The notes below the pieces were generated by a model. That model saw nothing but the letters and a program-made list of their open reading frames with translations, ran no database searches and was not told where the DNA came from. The position numbers and the translations under genes are program-made. Below, one piece after another: positions 1,320 to 60,385 of a DNA stretch of 64,000 nt. This DNA comes from Cyanidiococcus yangmingshanensis (taxonomy: Eukaryota > Rhodophyta > Bangiophyceae > Cyanidiales > Cyanidiaceae). Position 1 is the first letter of the stretch. Each line of letters begins with the position of its first letter. The stretch is taken from NCBI GenBank assembly GCA_013995675.1, contig VWRR01000002.1:62001-126000 (forward strand), written 5' to 3'.

Positions 1320-3472
1320 ATGGCCACCGAAGAGGGTGCTTCTCAAGTCCTCTCGTCAAAGGAGCCACTGGCGGTGGTTGCACCAAGTGAGTCGTTGGCA
1401 CCGTTAACGCCAGGCGTGTCGGAGCAACAGGCTTCGACGGCAGAGGAGCCCTTCTTCCCCGCCTCACCGGCGGAATGTGCCGAAGAGGACAAGAATGAGG
1501 TCGATGCAGCTGGAGAACAGTCTGATGATTTTTTGGCAGCGCGTCCAGTGATGGAAAGTCAGTCTGAGAAACCCTCGCTGCCAGCGGCTGCAGACGAGCT
1601 TGTCGAGCGGGCCCTCGACGAAGACCGTTCGCTTGCGTCCCTGCTCAACGCAGATGGCCCTGTACGATGGCCATCCGCTGAAACTCTGCTGCATCACGTC
1701 TCCTGTTCTCTCGAGAGGCGATATCTACTTTATCCAGGAACGATGTACATCACAGAGCGATATTTGTGTTTCAAGCTTTCAATATCACATGGCCCTTCTT
1801 TCCTGGAGGCGGCCGCTGCAGCGAGCGCGTCCGCAAGCAGCTTCCTAAGTTTTGGCTATCGGTCTAGTCCTTCAACGCGAATTGAGTCTGCTCCGGTACC
1901 GAATGACGAACAACGGACCAGCGCTGTGAACGAGAAAGAACAGTTCAGTTCGACCAGACGGGGCGATATGGACGCTTCCATTTCGCCATCCATCAACGCG
2001 CATGACGTGATGGCTTCGACATCGCCACCGTCTCGGACTGGCGAGACAGGTTCTGCGACGCTGTGGCTCGTACCGTTCGAAGCTGTGACCTCAGTTCGCA
2101 AGTCGTCGTATCTGTATCTGGAGAGCGCATTGGAGGTATCGACAGCGTTCGGGCTCTGCAATCATACCCGTTATGGTGGAGTGTTTTGGACACGGCCGCG
2201 GAGTACGCCCCCGGCGGTCAAGTTTCTGCGCTTCGCTGCATTCTCTGAGCCAAACCGCGACGCCGTCTACCAGTATATGATGAAAGCTTGGATGGCACGA
2301 TTGAGCCTGCTCGCGCTAGAGGGACGTTTGCCCCTGAGTATCCAGGATCCAGGGAAACAACATCCATCTGCAGTGTCCGCGAGACCATCGGGAAGTCCAG
2401 CTCCCACACTGGAATTGGAGCTGCAAACGGCCCCGAAGTGCCGTCGGATCGCACGGCGACCAGCGTCGATACGCCGTCTCCGTCTGGTTCTGCGGAAATG
2501 AGCCGAGGCTCTTCCAGAGATTGGCTGAAATCGATGGAGCCAAGCCCGGACATTCAGGTCAATGGTGCGACGCCACGCGAAAGCAGTGCTCCGGTCACTG
2601 TCGATATCGCTTATGACATTGAAGCTGGCCAGATGTTTCTGGAAATTCCAGCATTCGTTTGGTCCGCTGAGCAATCAACAGACGCACCTGAAGAACGTGT
2701 CTTCGAAATGTTCTTTGCGGACTCGTCGCCGCTCCCGAGACAACTCAATGAACAGCTTGGGCACAGTGAACTCCAGATGAGCACCTGGCAGCGCTTGGAT
2801 GCCACCAGTGATAGTACAGGGGGCGTAGCTGCTTGCGTCGTGCCGCGGTATCGGACGATTTCATACCAGGTAACAGTTCGACGTGGACTGCTCAGCTTTA
2901 CAGGCCATTGCACCGAATCGCAATCCTTCCTGCGTACCCCGGCAGCATTACGAGACCATGCGTTTCCTCATAGTGCGATGTACGAGATATCGGTGCTCAC
3001 ACGGGACATGCCTTCATCAGACACGTTTCTTGTCCGGCAACGGATTTTCTTTGATCTCTCTCTTGACGACAAGGCATGGCGTGTTCGAGTCCGTGCTGTT
3101 CTCGGGATCCAGTGGCTCGCACGCACGGTTTGGCGTCCCTTTATCGAACGTAGCGTTGCATCGCAAAGTCGTCACGCCTTTGAACAAATGGCCAAACTTA
3201 TGCAGAGCCACATCGATACAAGATGGAATCGAAACGACACGACTCAGCTGCAAGAACGCGTTCTTTTATTGAAAGGTCAACCAGTTTTCGGCATCCACTG
3301 GACTCGGATCAGCAGCGTGCTCCAGTCGACATGCCGTGGCTATGGTCACGCCATGGAAAATGCACTAGGGCGGCTGCCGCCGCTGCTCTTGTATCGTTTG
3401 TTTCTTGCCCAAACCGTTCTGCTCATGACGCTCTCCGCCTTGTGTGGCTACTTGCTAGCGAGGACGGCCTGA
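1320..3472 (+). CDS. GRAM and VASt domain membrane protein (Lam/Aster-like sterol transporter)
   Basis: Probable sterol or lipid transfer protein anchored at membrane contact sites, as for yeast Lam/Ltc and animal GRAMD1 proteins. The first ATG of the frame is at 1320; an acidic, disordered N-terminus leads into a GRAM domain (about nt 1670-2300, with LYPGTMYITERYLCFK near 1728) interrupted by a Ser-rich insert. After a disordered linker, a VASt domain runs about nt 2600-3230 (DIEAGQMFLEIPAFVW; YRTISYQVTVRRGLLSFTGH), and a single hydrophobic C-terminal helix (LLLYRLFLAQTVLLMTLSAL) ends the protein, as in tail-anchored Lam proteins. The GRAM and VASt parts lie in different frames; the switch falls near 2310-2345 and behaves as one missing base (or two extra), although a short intron cannot be excluded. 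Domain order supports one gene. Confidence 0.8.
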
Positions 3473-42334: not shown

Positions 42335-43785
42335 CTAGTTGTATTCGCCAGTGGCGAGACGGACCACGGCTGCTCGCCATGGTGATACGGTCTCAAGCGT
42401 GCGCATGCCGAGCCCGCGCAAGGTACTTGCGAGCTGCTCGCCAAGTCCGCGCGTCGCTGACGGAAATGCAAAGATGCGACGCAAGGCAGCGAGGCTCAGC
42501 AGCATCATGGTATTCATCGGCAAACGCTCACGAGTATACGCAGCCAAAAGACTCGGATCACCAAGATCTCGACCGGTTTTCCAAGCATGTTGCAGGATTC
42601 GAGCGAGAGCTCGAGCGTCAGCGATGCCCAAGTTAACACCCTGACCTGCCAGCGGATGGATAACATGCGCGGCGTCACCAACCAGAACGACTCGCTTTCC
42701 GTCATAGGTCGATGCACTGCCAAAATGCAATGGAAAAGACCAGCGATCGCGTTGGTCAATGGCACTTGGAATGAGTCGTCGAAAGGTTGGCACTGCAGCG
42801 TGCAAATGGGCAGATGCTTGTCGAGGCGTTCTTGTCGAGGCGCTGGCAGCGTCTTGCCCTTCTCCAGCATGGACGCCGTGCAACGCCTCGTGGAGAGCGT
42901 CGAGGAACTGTGCCTCGGTAGCTTCCAATTCCAACCAATCTGCCTCGACTGTGTTCGTCGACCAGACGATATTGCTGTACTGGCTATGGACCACCGAGTG
43001 GAAGCACAGCGACCGGACCGTGCGGTAGAAATCGCTGAATGGCCAAGCGGTTGGGTTCATGGTTCTCAACGATTGCCACAATCGCTCGTTGATGGTACGA
43101 CTGACCAATCCAGCCGAGACCAGTACGTTCTCGAACTGGAGAACGAGCACCGTCTGCGGCAACGACCAGAGAGGCGAAAACCGAGACTGGCTCTCGATGC
43201 TGCGTCTGCTTCTCGCAACGTCAGCTGAACCCATTGACTATCTGGGACCCAGGCCAGTGAGGCAAGACCGGCCCTACTCCAGCGAAGCAACGCGTGGTGA
43301 TCGTCGCTCATCCTGGCGGGCTTGTCTGGGGTGGAAACGACCCCACCTGAACGAGACGCCTCCTCTAGACATTGATGCAGAGTCTGCAGTAGCGCTCGTT
43401 CCTCGACGATGTATCCCAGCACAGTCGGATCCGTCGACTCGGAATCCGTTCGATCGGTCGCTTGAAAGGTGATCTGTTCCATATCTGAACGTCCGTACAC
43501 GAAAAGAGTATCAAAGCAGGTGATAGCTGACTTGGGTATTCGTTGCCATACGCCTAGAGACTGGAGGAAACGCTGGGATGCTGGTGTCAGTGCCACCGTG
43601 CGTAAACTGGACGCAACCTCGGCGATCGGTTGCCACGGCGTGGCGGGTTTGGGCTCGATCACGAGAACTCGAGCTGCCGGACTAGCGAGTCTCTGGTGCA
43701 ACGCGAGCGCCAGTGTTGCGCCAACAATGCCACCGCCCACAACCGCAACGTCCACAGACGCCGACGGGGGCGCTCCTGTCTGCAT
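42335..43785 (-). CDS. COQ6: Ubiquinone biosynthesis monooxygenase COQ6
   Basis: FAD-dependent hydroxylase of the UbiH/COQ6 group that hydroxylates the benzoquinone ring C5 in mitochondria. From ATG 43785: VDVAVVGGGIVGATLALALH (FAD GxGxxG), VGWQ-type mid region, then VVAADGARSPVRERTGLG and RFLPHGPVAVLPLGG, then SNIVWSTNTVEADWLELE, and KRVVLVGDAAHVIHPLAGQG with NLGIADARALARI. The three parts lie in three frames; one skipped base near 43166 and another near 42988 join them, and the middle part is missing from either long open frame. Total about 480 residues, as in other COQ6. No clear presequence is seen. Confidence 0.93.
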
Positions 43786-54222: not shown

Positions 54223-56034
<1,812 letters not shown>

Positions 56035-59000
56035 TTAGCGATTTGCATGGATTGCCCGAGTCATGCCTCGCTCACAGCCAGATGATGATTCGTCTGCGTC
56101 AGACGGGGTCTTTCCCCTAGAGGAGGCTGGCTGCTCCGACGGGTTCACGGTGTCGACTGCAAAGCCAGTCGATGCTATCCTCAATGCTCTGTACTTGGCA
56201 TTACAGCGGATAAGCACACCATGGGATAGGTGCGACTCATCGACGAATGCCGCACAAGGCTGCATGATCAGGATCTCATGATCATCGCATGCATAGAGGG
56301 CGCAGACCTTTGCACCGATGACAGCGATAGCGTCTTGAGACCTCCCTCGAATGCGTAACGGAGTCGTTCGGGTCGGTGCCGCCAGCCAGGTGGACTTGCG
56401 TACCACCTAGTCTGGTCTGCGTGGCATCGTCGTTCTCGTTGGGCATCACCGTTCGGTACTCGGTATCAAACGCGATATTGGAGCTTGAATCCTCGGATTG
56501 TGTTGCGAGCAGTGTGCTGCGGCCATGCAGCAACTGGATGCCGACCAGAATCGGTTCCGAGCCGGTGGACGCCGCAGCGTCGCCAGGACGGTACTCGAAC
56601 GCTTGACGCAGTTTCTGGGCCACCTTCGATTCTTTCTGGATGTTGCAAGAGAGCCATGCAGATTCATGACACGCACTCCAGCGAAGCGAAGTCAGTACAA
56701 CCCAATGAACGCGATGATCCGCCTCTTCGAGGGTAAGCACGGCCACCGACTTGGGCAGCGACGATGTGAACAGGCGCAGCGCCTCGGAAGGATGCGGCAC
56801 CTGGGTACAGAACAGCTCGGTCGGCAATTGCATACTGGTGGAACCGAGCTGATTTCGCATGAAAAGAAGTAAGCGTAGTGCGTGTTGCGAACCAGGTAAA
56901 ACCTGGTGGACATTGGCAACGACGATACATTCATGGGTCTCAGCCGAGAGCGGATACTGATCGTGTATGCTAATTCGAAGCGTGGGTGTGTCGAGCGTCT
57001 CATCGGCGTTCACTGGGAGGCCAGCAGTCGGTACGGGCGTCCCACAAACTCTGGTTCTACCTCGACGACGCGTCAAGTGCATGAAATGTTCGACTTGGGT
57101 CTGATGTGCTCGTGTCAAAAGATACATATAAAAGCAGGAATGCGGATCAGCGGCCATCTCGTCAACCGCTGATTGAACGACCGTGCCGTCTGCAGTACTC
57201 GAATCCGACGAGCGACCCGAGGCTACATGCTGCAACCCAGTGTGCAGCGGGCCTGTAGACTGCATGATATGGAAGGTGACTCGCGGCGGCGATAACGAGC
57301 ACACCGCGAGGGTATCAACCAAAGCAACCCATGCGCCTAGCGGCTGATCCGCTTGTACGCTCGCTGGGGTCAGTACGAAGATTGGGCGAGGCATCAGCGC
57401 AGCAGCACTGCAGCATGATGCGATCGTCGTCAGCAGTCTGGCGATAGAGCGTACAGGCATCTGTATCGCATCGGGCGGGTAGACAGCATGCGCACCGGTC
57501 GTTGGTCGTACACAGGGGAAACGAGCCGGTAGCGCCTCGAAAGTCGGGGACGCGAATACGCCCGCCGATGCCGCCTCAGCATCCCGCTTGTAGATTGATC
57601 TCGTAAGGATGCAGAAAGCAAGTACTTGAGGCTGGTTTTGCAGCCATTGTGCCGCCTCAGTGGGCGCTCTGAAACGTCATCGCAGCCGTGGCAAAGGCAT
57701 CGGCAGTCGTCGCATTGCATGCGAGCACGGTCACCGAAGCGATCGAATCTTTCGTTGCCCGCCGAATGCATTTATCCAGTGGTGAAAGGATGTGATAGAA
57801 CCCAAATCGCTCCATTTGGAAGTAATCACCTGACGTGGCGAGCCCAAGTGCTGTCTCGGCGCGCTCGAACGCCAGTAAATAGGCTGCCTCTTGCGGGCGC
57901 GGATGCCATGATGACGCTCGTTGTCGCCAGCCTGCAAAGAGTCGCTCCAGTGCTGGGGGCCGAATGACCAGCGTGCGCCATTTTCGACCCGAGGGATGTT
58001 CTCCCCAGGCCCGAATCTCGCTGCCCCAGTCCACGAACGCTCCGACGAGAGCATATTCCCGATCGATAGCCTCACGATGATCGTGCTCCTCTGTCGCTGT
58101 CTGCAGCCAACAGGCCCGCAATTCAGTCGTCGTTGGAATCGTGTGCACGCCACACGCCGGATTCTGTAATTGGCTTTCGGTATCCCGTTTTCCAAAACTT
58201 TCTCGTAAGCATTGATCAATCTGGTCGACAATCCAGCCTTTGAGCAAGCCGTCCAGGTCGAGCACAGCTCCGCAACGACTCAGCTGAGCTGTGGACAAGT
58301 GATCCTCGCCGGATCCATCCAGATGAATGAGATCGGACCATCCTACATTTTCCCATGAAACTTGGCGTTCATCCAACGGGTTTTGTATCTCTCCAGCGCT
58401 AAGCTTGTCGCGAAACAAGCGCCACAGGGCACCGCATGTCGGGTCATACCGGCCGCCGGTAGCACGATGGAGGCGATCCGCCTCCTGCAACAAGACAAAG
58501 AGCTGAGGAGTCACTGGCAACGCCTCTTGTGAACAAGCCTGACGACAGAAGCTGCTCAGCTCCGAATTCGAGTTCCAACGATTGGCCACACGATGGCACA
58601 TCTCCATGTGCGCACGCACACGCTCGAGCACTGCAGAAAGGATCGACTCTGGAACGGAGATTGTTCGAATACCATCGACGGATGCAGCCACCTCAGCAGG
58701 CGATGGCATATGTTGCCAGTGCGTATGCAACACAAGCGGGATTCCGAACGCACTCCCCGCAAACGTCACCAGTACTCGCGCCCCATAGATGGTCTGTTTC
58801 ACGTCGTCCAGCGTCATGACCAATGGGCGCTTTTCAACGGACTCGATAGAGTAACGACTCGCACTCGCGCCACCGTCGCCCGAGCGACACCATTGGTCAT
58901 CGTGCACGAAATATTCCTCTACTGCGCTCACGCCTAGGTCGTCTGCTGGCACCAGTAAGGATGACTCCTGGCTCGTACACTCATTTTCGGCATCTGCAGC

Positions 59001-59206
59001 ACCTGTGTCATCGATACCTGAAGCTGTGGAAAGCGAGTCGTAATGGGCACCCACTTTCTGTTCGTCATCATGAAAGTACCCGTCATCGGGGACTGAGAAC
59101 AAGCAGCCCATAAGCAAATCAAGAAGATCAGCGTCAAGTTATCAAAATTCCTCCAAAGTACCACCACACCAAGTATCAGCACCCCGCAATATGCAGCGAG
59201 CGTCAT
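56035..59206 (-). CDS. ApbE-type FMN transferase fused to two flavin-reductase-like domains
   Basis: The track shows separate frames, but homology runs through them. ApbE domain (about nt 58790-57600): MCHRVANRWNSNSELSSF, DLDGLLKGWIVDQIDQCL, LATSGDYFQMERFG and SVTVLACNATTADAFATAAM, with the terminal EAAQWLQNQPQVLAFCILTR found only after one skipped base near 57672-57674. That frame continues through MPRPIFVLTPAS without a stop into a first split-barrel flavin-reductase-like domain (VALVDTLAVCSLSPPRVTF; ETHECIVVANVHQVLPG) and a second (LFTSSLPKSVAVLTLEEADH). The latter is completed after another skip near 56345 by GAKVCALYACDDHEILIMQP. The N-terminus from ATG 59206 is a hydrophobic helix (MTLAAYCGVLILGVVVLW) joined by one missing base near 59125; otherwise the start is ATG 59111. 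About 1,000 residues; likely a membrane-anchored flavoprotein maturase/redox protein. Confidence 0.75.
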
Positions 59207-60385
59207 TGCGAACTAGGAACGATTGCATGGCTTGAGACAAGTGCCCTGCAAGTCGCCAGATCCGCATGCAGCGCGATCAAACCGACACGTGGCCAGCGCG
59301 CGAGCGCGTCGGCATCGCGGGCGGCCCCCACGCGATCGCCACGTGTGGGTCGTGCAGCCGCGGCGTCGATGCCGCACGACGCGACGGTGATGTCACGCAT
59401 GGTGTATGTCCGATGCGTGATATCATACGATGAATCATATATTTCCAAGGGATGAATTGTCCAATGCATAGAAACATCCTCGTGGTCCCTACAGGACATG
59501 CTCGTTCCATGGCCCATATCATAAGCAGTGGCCGTCCTGCGTATAGGACCATCGACGCGTGAACGATTCATGACGTCTATCAGAGGTACGTGTCATGCAG
59601 AGATCGCTGCTGACTGTGGCAAGTGTCCAAGCCTTGAATGGTTCATTGGCTTCTCATCGGAGATATTCCTCGAGGCTTGGTCTTCGAGTTGAGAAAAGCT
59701 TCCGAATACCACGACGCGACGACGAAAATGGCAAGCAGTGCTCGACCTGAATGGCGCGCGACCGAGAAGAGAATCGTATTTAACGGAGGCCTTGGACAAT
59801 GCCGATGTCGCAGCCATAGACCAATCATGCGATGAATAGGATGGTCGTAGGATGCGCGATAGACGCGTCTTCCGTCGCCTCTGCCCTAAGATGGCATCGT
59901 GAGTCGAGGCCAACGGCGCCAAGGTGCATATCGTCACCAGAGATGGGTATGTCGCGCCATAGATGCGCATTTTTAGATTGTGGTGAGTTATCCAGTTTCG
60001 TTTCGGACCTTGAAATCGGAGATTTTTCAGAGAAAGGGCGAGGCGCTGAGCGTCGTGCCCAGCAACCTTGGGCTCTCTGCGCTGACTGCCCATGCGCAAC
60101 GTTGCCCCAAACGGCTGATCCGCTGCCATGAGCACCTGCAGGAGCGATCAGATCCTCGGTATCGAATGTCGGGTCATAAGGTTCTGAAAGCATCGTTTCG
60201 TTCCGTGGCGTTTGCAGCTGCAGCGTATTTGTATCTCAAAGCGGAATCGCGCCGTGGCACTGGGCGTTACGCCCACAGTTCAACGAAACGGGTGAGAATG
60301 CATCCTCATGGCGTTGTTGCCGGCGTGCAGTTGCACAAACATTGCGTCAAAGAGTCGGGCGGGTCACCATGACCATTCTCCGTTC
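59207..60385. other. Intergenic region
   Basis: Between the ApbE-fusion start and the CPSF100 end. A 67-codon plus frame from ATG 60166 to 60372 (MSGHKVLKASFRSVAFAAAA start, one short hydrophobic patch) could be a micropeptide but nothing supports it. Other frames overlap without motif. Confidence 0.45.

Follow-up and report, generated by a model that had tools for sequence, protein, structure and literature searches.

A predicted lipid-anchored ApbE-flavin reductase fusion of red algae that may flavinylate its own tail

The stretch of DNA considered here (64,000 nt of the Cyanidiococcus yangmingshanensis contig VWRR01000002.1, positions 62,001 to 126,000 of the forward strand, referred to as the window) carries on its minus strand a gene for a protein that joins an ApbE flavin transferase domain to two predicted split barrels of the flavin reductase kind. 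We propose, with a probability of about 0.6, that this protein is a flavin reductase with a lipid anchor and that it attaches FMN to its own tail. Self-flavinylation is our leading idea because the tail contains a conserved motif, overlooked in the initial annotation, that resembles the acceptor sites of ApbE. Myristoylated Gly2 and palmitoylated Cys3 would hold the protein at the cytosolic membrane face, and the ApbE domain would use FAD with Mg2+ to place FMN on Ser31, within the motif YDSLSTAS of the protein's flexible tail. At the C-terminus the two split barrels would pack as an intramolecular pseudo-dimer, and barrel 2 would bind flavin and be reduced, most probably by NAD(P)H. From there the electrons would reach the tail-tethered FMN and finally an acceptor at the membrane or close to it. 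What the sequences show directly is the domain make-up, the conserved start, motif and catalytic residues, a single ApbE gene found in the genome and the lack of a match to two known families of ApbE substrates; acylation, the attachment of FMN and its position, the use of NAD(P)H, the packing of the barrels and the path of the electrons are inferred.

The whole gene (56035..59111, minus strand) gives a joined translation of 1024 aa across three reading frames, and the relative P0001 aligns with all three. ORF1, which contains the ApbE part, extends from an ATG at 59111 to a stop at 57657 (59111-57657), ORF2 with the middle part is open in a different frame (57676-56282), and ORF3 with the end part occupies the third frame (56406-56035). 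The initial annotation had described a chain running without a stop from ApbE into a region of about 450 residues. This continuity was a mistake, since a +1 step is required at either join; the region is flavin-reductase-like as had been claimed, but measures about 540 residues when everything between the first break and the ORF3 end is counted. In tblastn, P0001 aligned with 59111-57663 (55% identity), 57673-56420 (53%) and 56400-56173 (59%). The first frame break (57657..57676, +1) is defined by the frame limits and by the P0001 alignment, which overlaps itself there by four residues (P0001 residues 479-482). The second (56345..56406, +1) is defined by the opening of ORF3 and by the same alignment, and its exact place is uncertain: it was set at 56345 in the joined translation, while the P0001 alignment, which switches frame between 56420 and 56400 and leaves 5 residues and 19 bases unaligned, would place it near 56400-56420. 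With P0002, 16 residues and 97 bases are unaligned at this join. Introns are not favoured as the cause of the frame changes, as the first P0001 join overlaps and the gap at the second is small; a scan for five splice words found none of them in the window gene. For Cyanidiococcus, 36 introns are given in PMC9812998.

Both relatives are unbroken. In a search with the joined window protein, P0001 (1013 aa) showed 55% identity over 97% and P0002 (1018 aa) 41% identity over 99% of the length. The comparison confirms that ApbE and the flavin-reductase-like region belong to one conserved protein. Most likely the two frame breaks are assembly errors, because the unbroken P0001 spans both of them and because the ARF1 gene of the window is broken likewise. 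In ARF1 (54223-54787, minus strand) a +1 shift at a GGG run truncates the gene, and the conserved end is found in the next frame; this shift is probably an assembly error, since the best other match in the genome is only 53% identical. We give very little credence to the view that the gene is truly broken in this strain (a pseudogene) or that its parts are separate genes. Two frame breaks do stand in the assembly, and the published Cyanidiococcus assembly was reportedly corrected with short reads (PMC9812998), which, if the window is from that assembly, makes leftover one-base errors less likely and a real break possible. Against this view stand the unbroken relatives with the same order of parts, the 53-59% identity to P0001 on either side of the breaks, and the broken ARF1, whose other copies are at most 53% identical.

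The initial annotation was right about the ApbE domain: on the minus strand PF02424 (ApbE) reached 113.7 bits against a curated cut-off of 25.6. When the joined protein was compared with the profile, as had been suggested, the score for ApbE was 115.8 bits (3.3e-33), with approximate limits at residues ~110-505 (57600..58784), so that the domain spans the first break. The family considered below has 45 members, namely the 37 rows of alignment A3, seven further members and the window protein; a FolD-ApbE protein (P0043) and the fusions of ApbE to fumarate reductase (FRD; P0006-P0011 and P0045) were excluded. ApbE was detected in all 37 aligned members at E<=0.01. A profile of these 37 rows aligns with the ApbE structures 6nxi and 6nxj, which we take to be V. 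cholerae ApbE and its His variant, and the column of the catalytic His is the residue at which the two structures differ. By this alignment the catalytic motifs of the window protein (57678..57842, minus strand) are LATSGDYF (57842-57819), FYHI (from 57800) and ADAFATAAM (57704-57678). The catalytic triad of ApbE consists of Ser, His and Asp (PMC12052999). The corresponding columns (S426, H439 and D470 of P0001, in ATSGDY, H-I and AD) are invariant in 37/37 members, the window protein retains all three residues, and the positions of DxDGxxKG are invariant or nearly so across the 37 members. This supports a catalytically competent ApbE domain in the window protein. That the protein is instead a lipid-anchored flavin, quinone or iron reductase with a structural or inactive ApbE domain appears very improbable in view of these conserved residues, even though divergence is high here, as it is for the trypanosomatid ApbE domains, which are less than 25% identical to bacterial ones (PMC12052999). 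A search of the genome (12,072,675 bases, 20 contigs) matched ApbE in the window gene alone.

The putative acceptor is the motif YDSLSTAS in the tail (residues 24-31; 59019..59042, minus strand), with FMN expected on Ser31. Exactly one copy of the pattern [YFH][DE][ST]xxxA[ST] is present in each of 39 tails of the family, just ahead of ApbE; its first residue is Tyr or His in all of them, and its A-[ST] end is invariant (39/39). Twelve tail residues, YDSLSTASGIDD, are identical in the window protein, P0001 and P0002. The consensus of ApbE acceptors is D-x-x-[S/T]-G-A-[S/T]; seven residues suffice for flavinylation, and a terminal position works best (PMC12052999). In trypanosomatid FRDg the motif D3(g/s)x(s/t)(s/g)AS9 is found at the extreme N-terminus and Ser9 bears the flavin; in the Leptomonas protein the exchange S9N abolished activity (PMC8065229). 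When the looser pattern [DE]xxxxA[ST] was applied to the first 130 residues of seven ApbE-FRD fusions, six of them matched (DGESSAS, DGEAAAS, DGESSAS, DGEASAS, DHNVGAS and DGRSSAS) and P0010 did not. The initial annotation had pointed to the trypanosomatid ApbE fusions, and the similarity in plan is supported: an acceptor-type motif at the N-terminus is followed by ApbE and then by a redox module.

The ApbE frame begins with MGCLFS (59094..59111, minus strand), a predicted signal for N-myristoylation at Gly2 and S-palmitoylation at Cys3. A myristoylation-type MG start was found in 39/45 members; Ser6 is present in 39/39, and at residue 3 there are 35 with Cys, three with Asn and one with Ala. 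The MG stands at residue 1 in 34 of the 39 gene models. Five members have no tail, their models beginning after it (P0031, P0032, P0033, P0039 and P0044), and P0026 has a start without MG and carries FDTQVSAS. The genome contains one match to N-myristoyltransferase (5.7e-70) and seven to DHHC, two of them overlapping. N-myristoylation takes place in the cytosol, and therefore a cytosol-facing protein is expected; the start suggests that the window protein faces the cytosol by means of a lipid anchor and is not exported. The extracytoplasmic or organellar compartment that had been assigned to it is thus unlikely. A membrane anchor in one chain with ApbE and split barrels had been proposed as well, and this stands in the form of the predicted acylation at Gly2 and Cys3, but not as a hydrophobic helix. 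The hydrophobic reading frame (58934..59212, minus strand; KD19 1.9) is a different one and lies outside the protein, and in the ApbE frame the ATG at 59111 is preceded, at a distance of nine codons, by two stops. No strongly hydrophobic 19-residue stretch (KD >=1.6) was found within 100 residues from the MG in any of the 39 members.

For the C-terminal region we built family profiles of the two barrels from ten relatives each (10/37 barrel-1 and 10/36 barrel-2 segments), excluding the cyanidiophyte rows with long insertions. Barrel 2 (56179..56790, minus strand) spans the second break and retains TSLRWSA, CNIQ and CDDHEILI. With an E limit of 1 its profile had 24 PDB matches. The top 21 have E values below 0.002 and are flavin reductases or kindred oxidoreductases and flavoproteins by name. 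The best of them is 4l82 (9.4e-15, full length), which has a code name only. A profile of the complete protein from 37 rows, P0001 and P0002 among them, matched 4l82 at 6.8e-12; for flavin reductases with a name the E values began at 3.7e-11. ApbE and Flavin_Reduct (PF01613) are the only domains detected at E<=0.01 in the 37 members, and Flavin_Reduct was found in 32 of them at this limit, which is looser than the cut-off of Pfam. For the family, the flavin-reductase fold of barrel 2 is clear from these profile comparisons. Family profiles were needed for this assignment, as a single-sequence PDB search with ORF2 alone gave no match. Barrel 1 (56820..57421, minus strand) appears to be a degenerate split barrel that retains VDTLAVCSLSPPRVTF at 57319-57272. 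In a single comparison of the two barrel profiles 130 columns were aligned (probability 75.6, E 2.4e-5), and in our reading the pair arose by an ancient duplication, after which one copy degenerated. Because flavin reductases act as dimers, the two barrels may form an intramolecular dimer.

The flavin-binding fold of barrel 2 would also fit a flavin-supply module, close to the flavin capture suggested in the initial annotation, with ApbE chiefly hydrolysing FAD and passing the resulting FMN on to the split barrels. Hydrolysis of this kind is a property of some ApbE-type proteins, among them treponemal Ftp. We consider this improbable, since it leaves the conserved tail motif and the transferase residues without explanation.

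Besides the reported short-read correction, several points weigh against a lipid-anchored, self-flavinylating reductase. With shuffled tails the motif was found in 0.13 of the 39 on average and in 2/39 at most, but this test overstates the case because the pattern was composed after the first sequences had been viewed and because the members are relatives of each other, with 31 tails remaining once a loose redundancy filter was applied. The strict acceptor consensus or the trypanosomatid form is matched by 0/39 tails. Glu replaces Asp in 23/39, motif position 4 is Ser or Thr in just 19/39, and Gly is found at position 5 in 0/39. In another enzyme, changing the Gly of the acceptor to Ala roughly halves flavinylation, while an Asp-to-Ala change has minor effects (PMC12052999). 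With regard to the anchor, Cys3 is missing in 4/39 members, and in 5/39 (P0027, P0028, P0040, P0041 and P0051) the MG start lies 8-47 residues inside the model. In P0027, P0028 and P0051 the 29-47 residues that precede MGC are basic-rich; if translated, these extensions could be organelle-targeting peptides, and otherwise they could represent upstream read-through. Stretches with KD >=1.6 are present elsewhere in the chain in 24/39 members (at residue 110 in the window protein), and we take them to be core strands. As to the barrels, the window protein alone scored 19.8 bits with Flavin_Reduct, below the Pfam cut-off of 27, so that the profile check of the joined protein bore out ApbE but fell short for this domain; P0001 reached 21.4 bits. 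Of the two barrels in the initial annotation, the second is well supported by the family profile, but barrel 1 is weakly recognisable: the best flavin-reductase matches of its profile in the PDB have E values of 0.0043-0.025, and of its eight PDB matches with E values of at most 10, seven belong to the flavin-reductase kind. Finally, cyanidiophyte rows are absent from both barrel profiles.

The departures of the motif bear directly on another explanation, according to which the substrate of the ApbE domain is a different protein, flavinylated in trans, while the tail motif serves another purpose, for example as a site for phosphorylation, trafficking or docking. Action in trans on short motifs is the usual mode of ApbE enzymes (PMC12052999), and the tail motif is off consensus at position 5 in 39/39 members and at Asp in 23/39. 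Searches of the genome for possible substrates gave no match to FMN_bind or NqrB/RnfD, although the same type of search also missed Flavin_Reduct in the window itself: the genome search with this profile had no match, despite the window's own barrels. FAD_binding_2 had 11 matches in the genome, one of which spans the whole profile (16/23 candidates were scored), and this full-length match is probably succinate dehydrogenase. These results, the invariant A-[ST] end in 39 tails and the placement of the motif, which is that of the own acceptor in fused ApbE enzymes, argue against flavinylation in trans, and we consider it unlikely.

The predicted self-flavinylating enzyme resembles several known systems in parts. 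With trypanosomatid FRDg (ApbE-FRD-cytochrome b5 reductase; Leptomonas, Trypanosoma) it shares the order of acceptor-type motif, ApbE and redox module. The window protein is not an FRDg, however, because the FRD core (FAD_binding_2) and the cytochrome b5 reductase are missing, and two split barrels are found instead. It also has a predicted lipid anchor, whereas FRDg is glycosomal or mitochondrial (PMC8065229), and the red-algal motif does not fit D(g/s)x(s/t)(s/g)AS, often having Glu. Likeness to bacterial ApbE (e.g., PDB 6nxi) is seen in the profile match, the Ser-His-Asp columns and the motifs ATSGDY and ADxxAT; bacterial ApbE, in contrast, is a free periplasmic lipoprotein, while the red-algal domain is fused and is predicted to be cytosolic and to have a eukaryotic anchor of the myristoyl/palmitoyl type. 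The profile of barrel 2 is similar to the flavin reductases of two-component monooxygenases (HpaC, PheA2, HsaB; PF01613), including the DH motif, but the red-algal barrels stand in tandem in one chain, one partner is degenerate, and both are fused to ApbE. The same layout of anchor, acceptor and ApbE is found in three of the six motif-bearing ApbE-FRD fusions, which start with MGGG[AI]S and have acceptor-like motifs ahead of ApbE (P0006 and P0008 DGESSAS, P0009 DGEASAS). Their redox module differs, consisting of FAD_binding_2 and FAD/NAD-binding reductase domains according to precomputed Pfam annotation. Possibly they represent a second acyl-anchored self-flavinylating fusion.

Besides the window protein, four members of the family have an organism label, and all four are red algae: Agarophyton chilense (P0029), Chondrus crispus (P0039), Gracilaria domingensis (P0044, a fragment) and Purpureofilum apyrenoidigerum (P0046). 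We would put at even odds the broader proposal of a hitherto undescribed class of covalent flavoenzyme common to Cyanidiophyceae, florideophytes and the red algae between them: cytosolic, lipid-anchored and self-flavinylating, with a tethered FMN as electron shuttle between a pseudo-dimeric flavin-reductase core and an acceptor on the membrane side. Flavinylation by ApbE is known chiefly from bacteria and mostly from outside the cytosol. The bacterial process is treated in PMC8238504, and trypanosomatids are named as the eukaryotic cases in PMC12052999. For Porphyra yezoensis an ApbE transcript is listed in a table (PMC3207994). As the initial annotation had supposed, the arrangement has no earlier description in the literature searched, which covered ApbE in connection with eukaryotes, red algae, Cyanidioschyzon, trypanosomatids, myristoyl and split barrel; this is not proof of absence, as the accessible texts left most of the subscription literature outside the scope. 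If our interpretation is true, a major photosynthetic lineage has covalent FMN chemistry too, combined there with another type of redox module and with a lipid anchor predicted to be cytosolic. Eukaryotes would then have combined ApbE, an acyl anchor and a self-acceptor tail with different reductase modules on at least two occasions. The red-algal family suggests a modular design of acyl anchor, acceptor tail, ApbE and interchangeable reductase. With only one ApbE gene found in this genome, it would be a single-gene system.

To place the red-algal ApbE domain we calculated a tree of 43 rows, comprising 23 of 25 bacterial loci (all but L036 and L042, which yielded none), 12 of the 44 other members plus the window protein, six of the seven FRD fusions and P0043; the bacterial rows had been selected by the patterns of the scan itself. 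The 13 rows of red-algal type, including the window protein, were recovered together (support 100/99), and they were grouped with the six FRD fusions and four chlamydia-like rows (98/93). The fork of red-algal and chlamydia-like rows had support of 94/88, and the four chlamydia-like rows came together with only 73/33. Stand-alone chlamydial ApbE (L021, L022 and L024) and the FolD-fused P0043 adjoin the red-algal ApbE in the tree. L021, L022 and L024 were also among the best of the 25 bacterial loci in the one scan of genome contigs. The grouping is not decisive and is kept as a lead; an old gene transfer is possible. As the nearest bacterial ApbE found is chlamydial, it may be of use in the debate on chlamydial genes of algae.

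A further candidate fusion was seen at a planctomycete locus (L023), where one open stop-to-stop frame contains two acceptor motifs of the SGAT type, a membrane part and ApbE. The membrane part is NosR-like at a guess, and the frame is possibly another self-flavinylating fusion.

Two more loci of the window may be affected by frame changes. At 42338-43785 (minus strand) an FAD-dependent monooxygenase, UbiH/Coq6-like at a guess, is apparently split into overlapping frames, with a DAO-type N-terminal half and a FAD_binding_3 C-terminal half, and this is perhaps another frame break. At 1320-3469 (plus strand) a GRAM domain and a VASt domain are found in abutting frames; the two may form one protein of the sterol-transfer type, perhaps from a broken gene.

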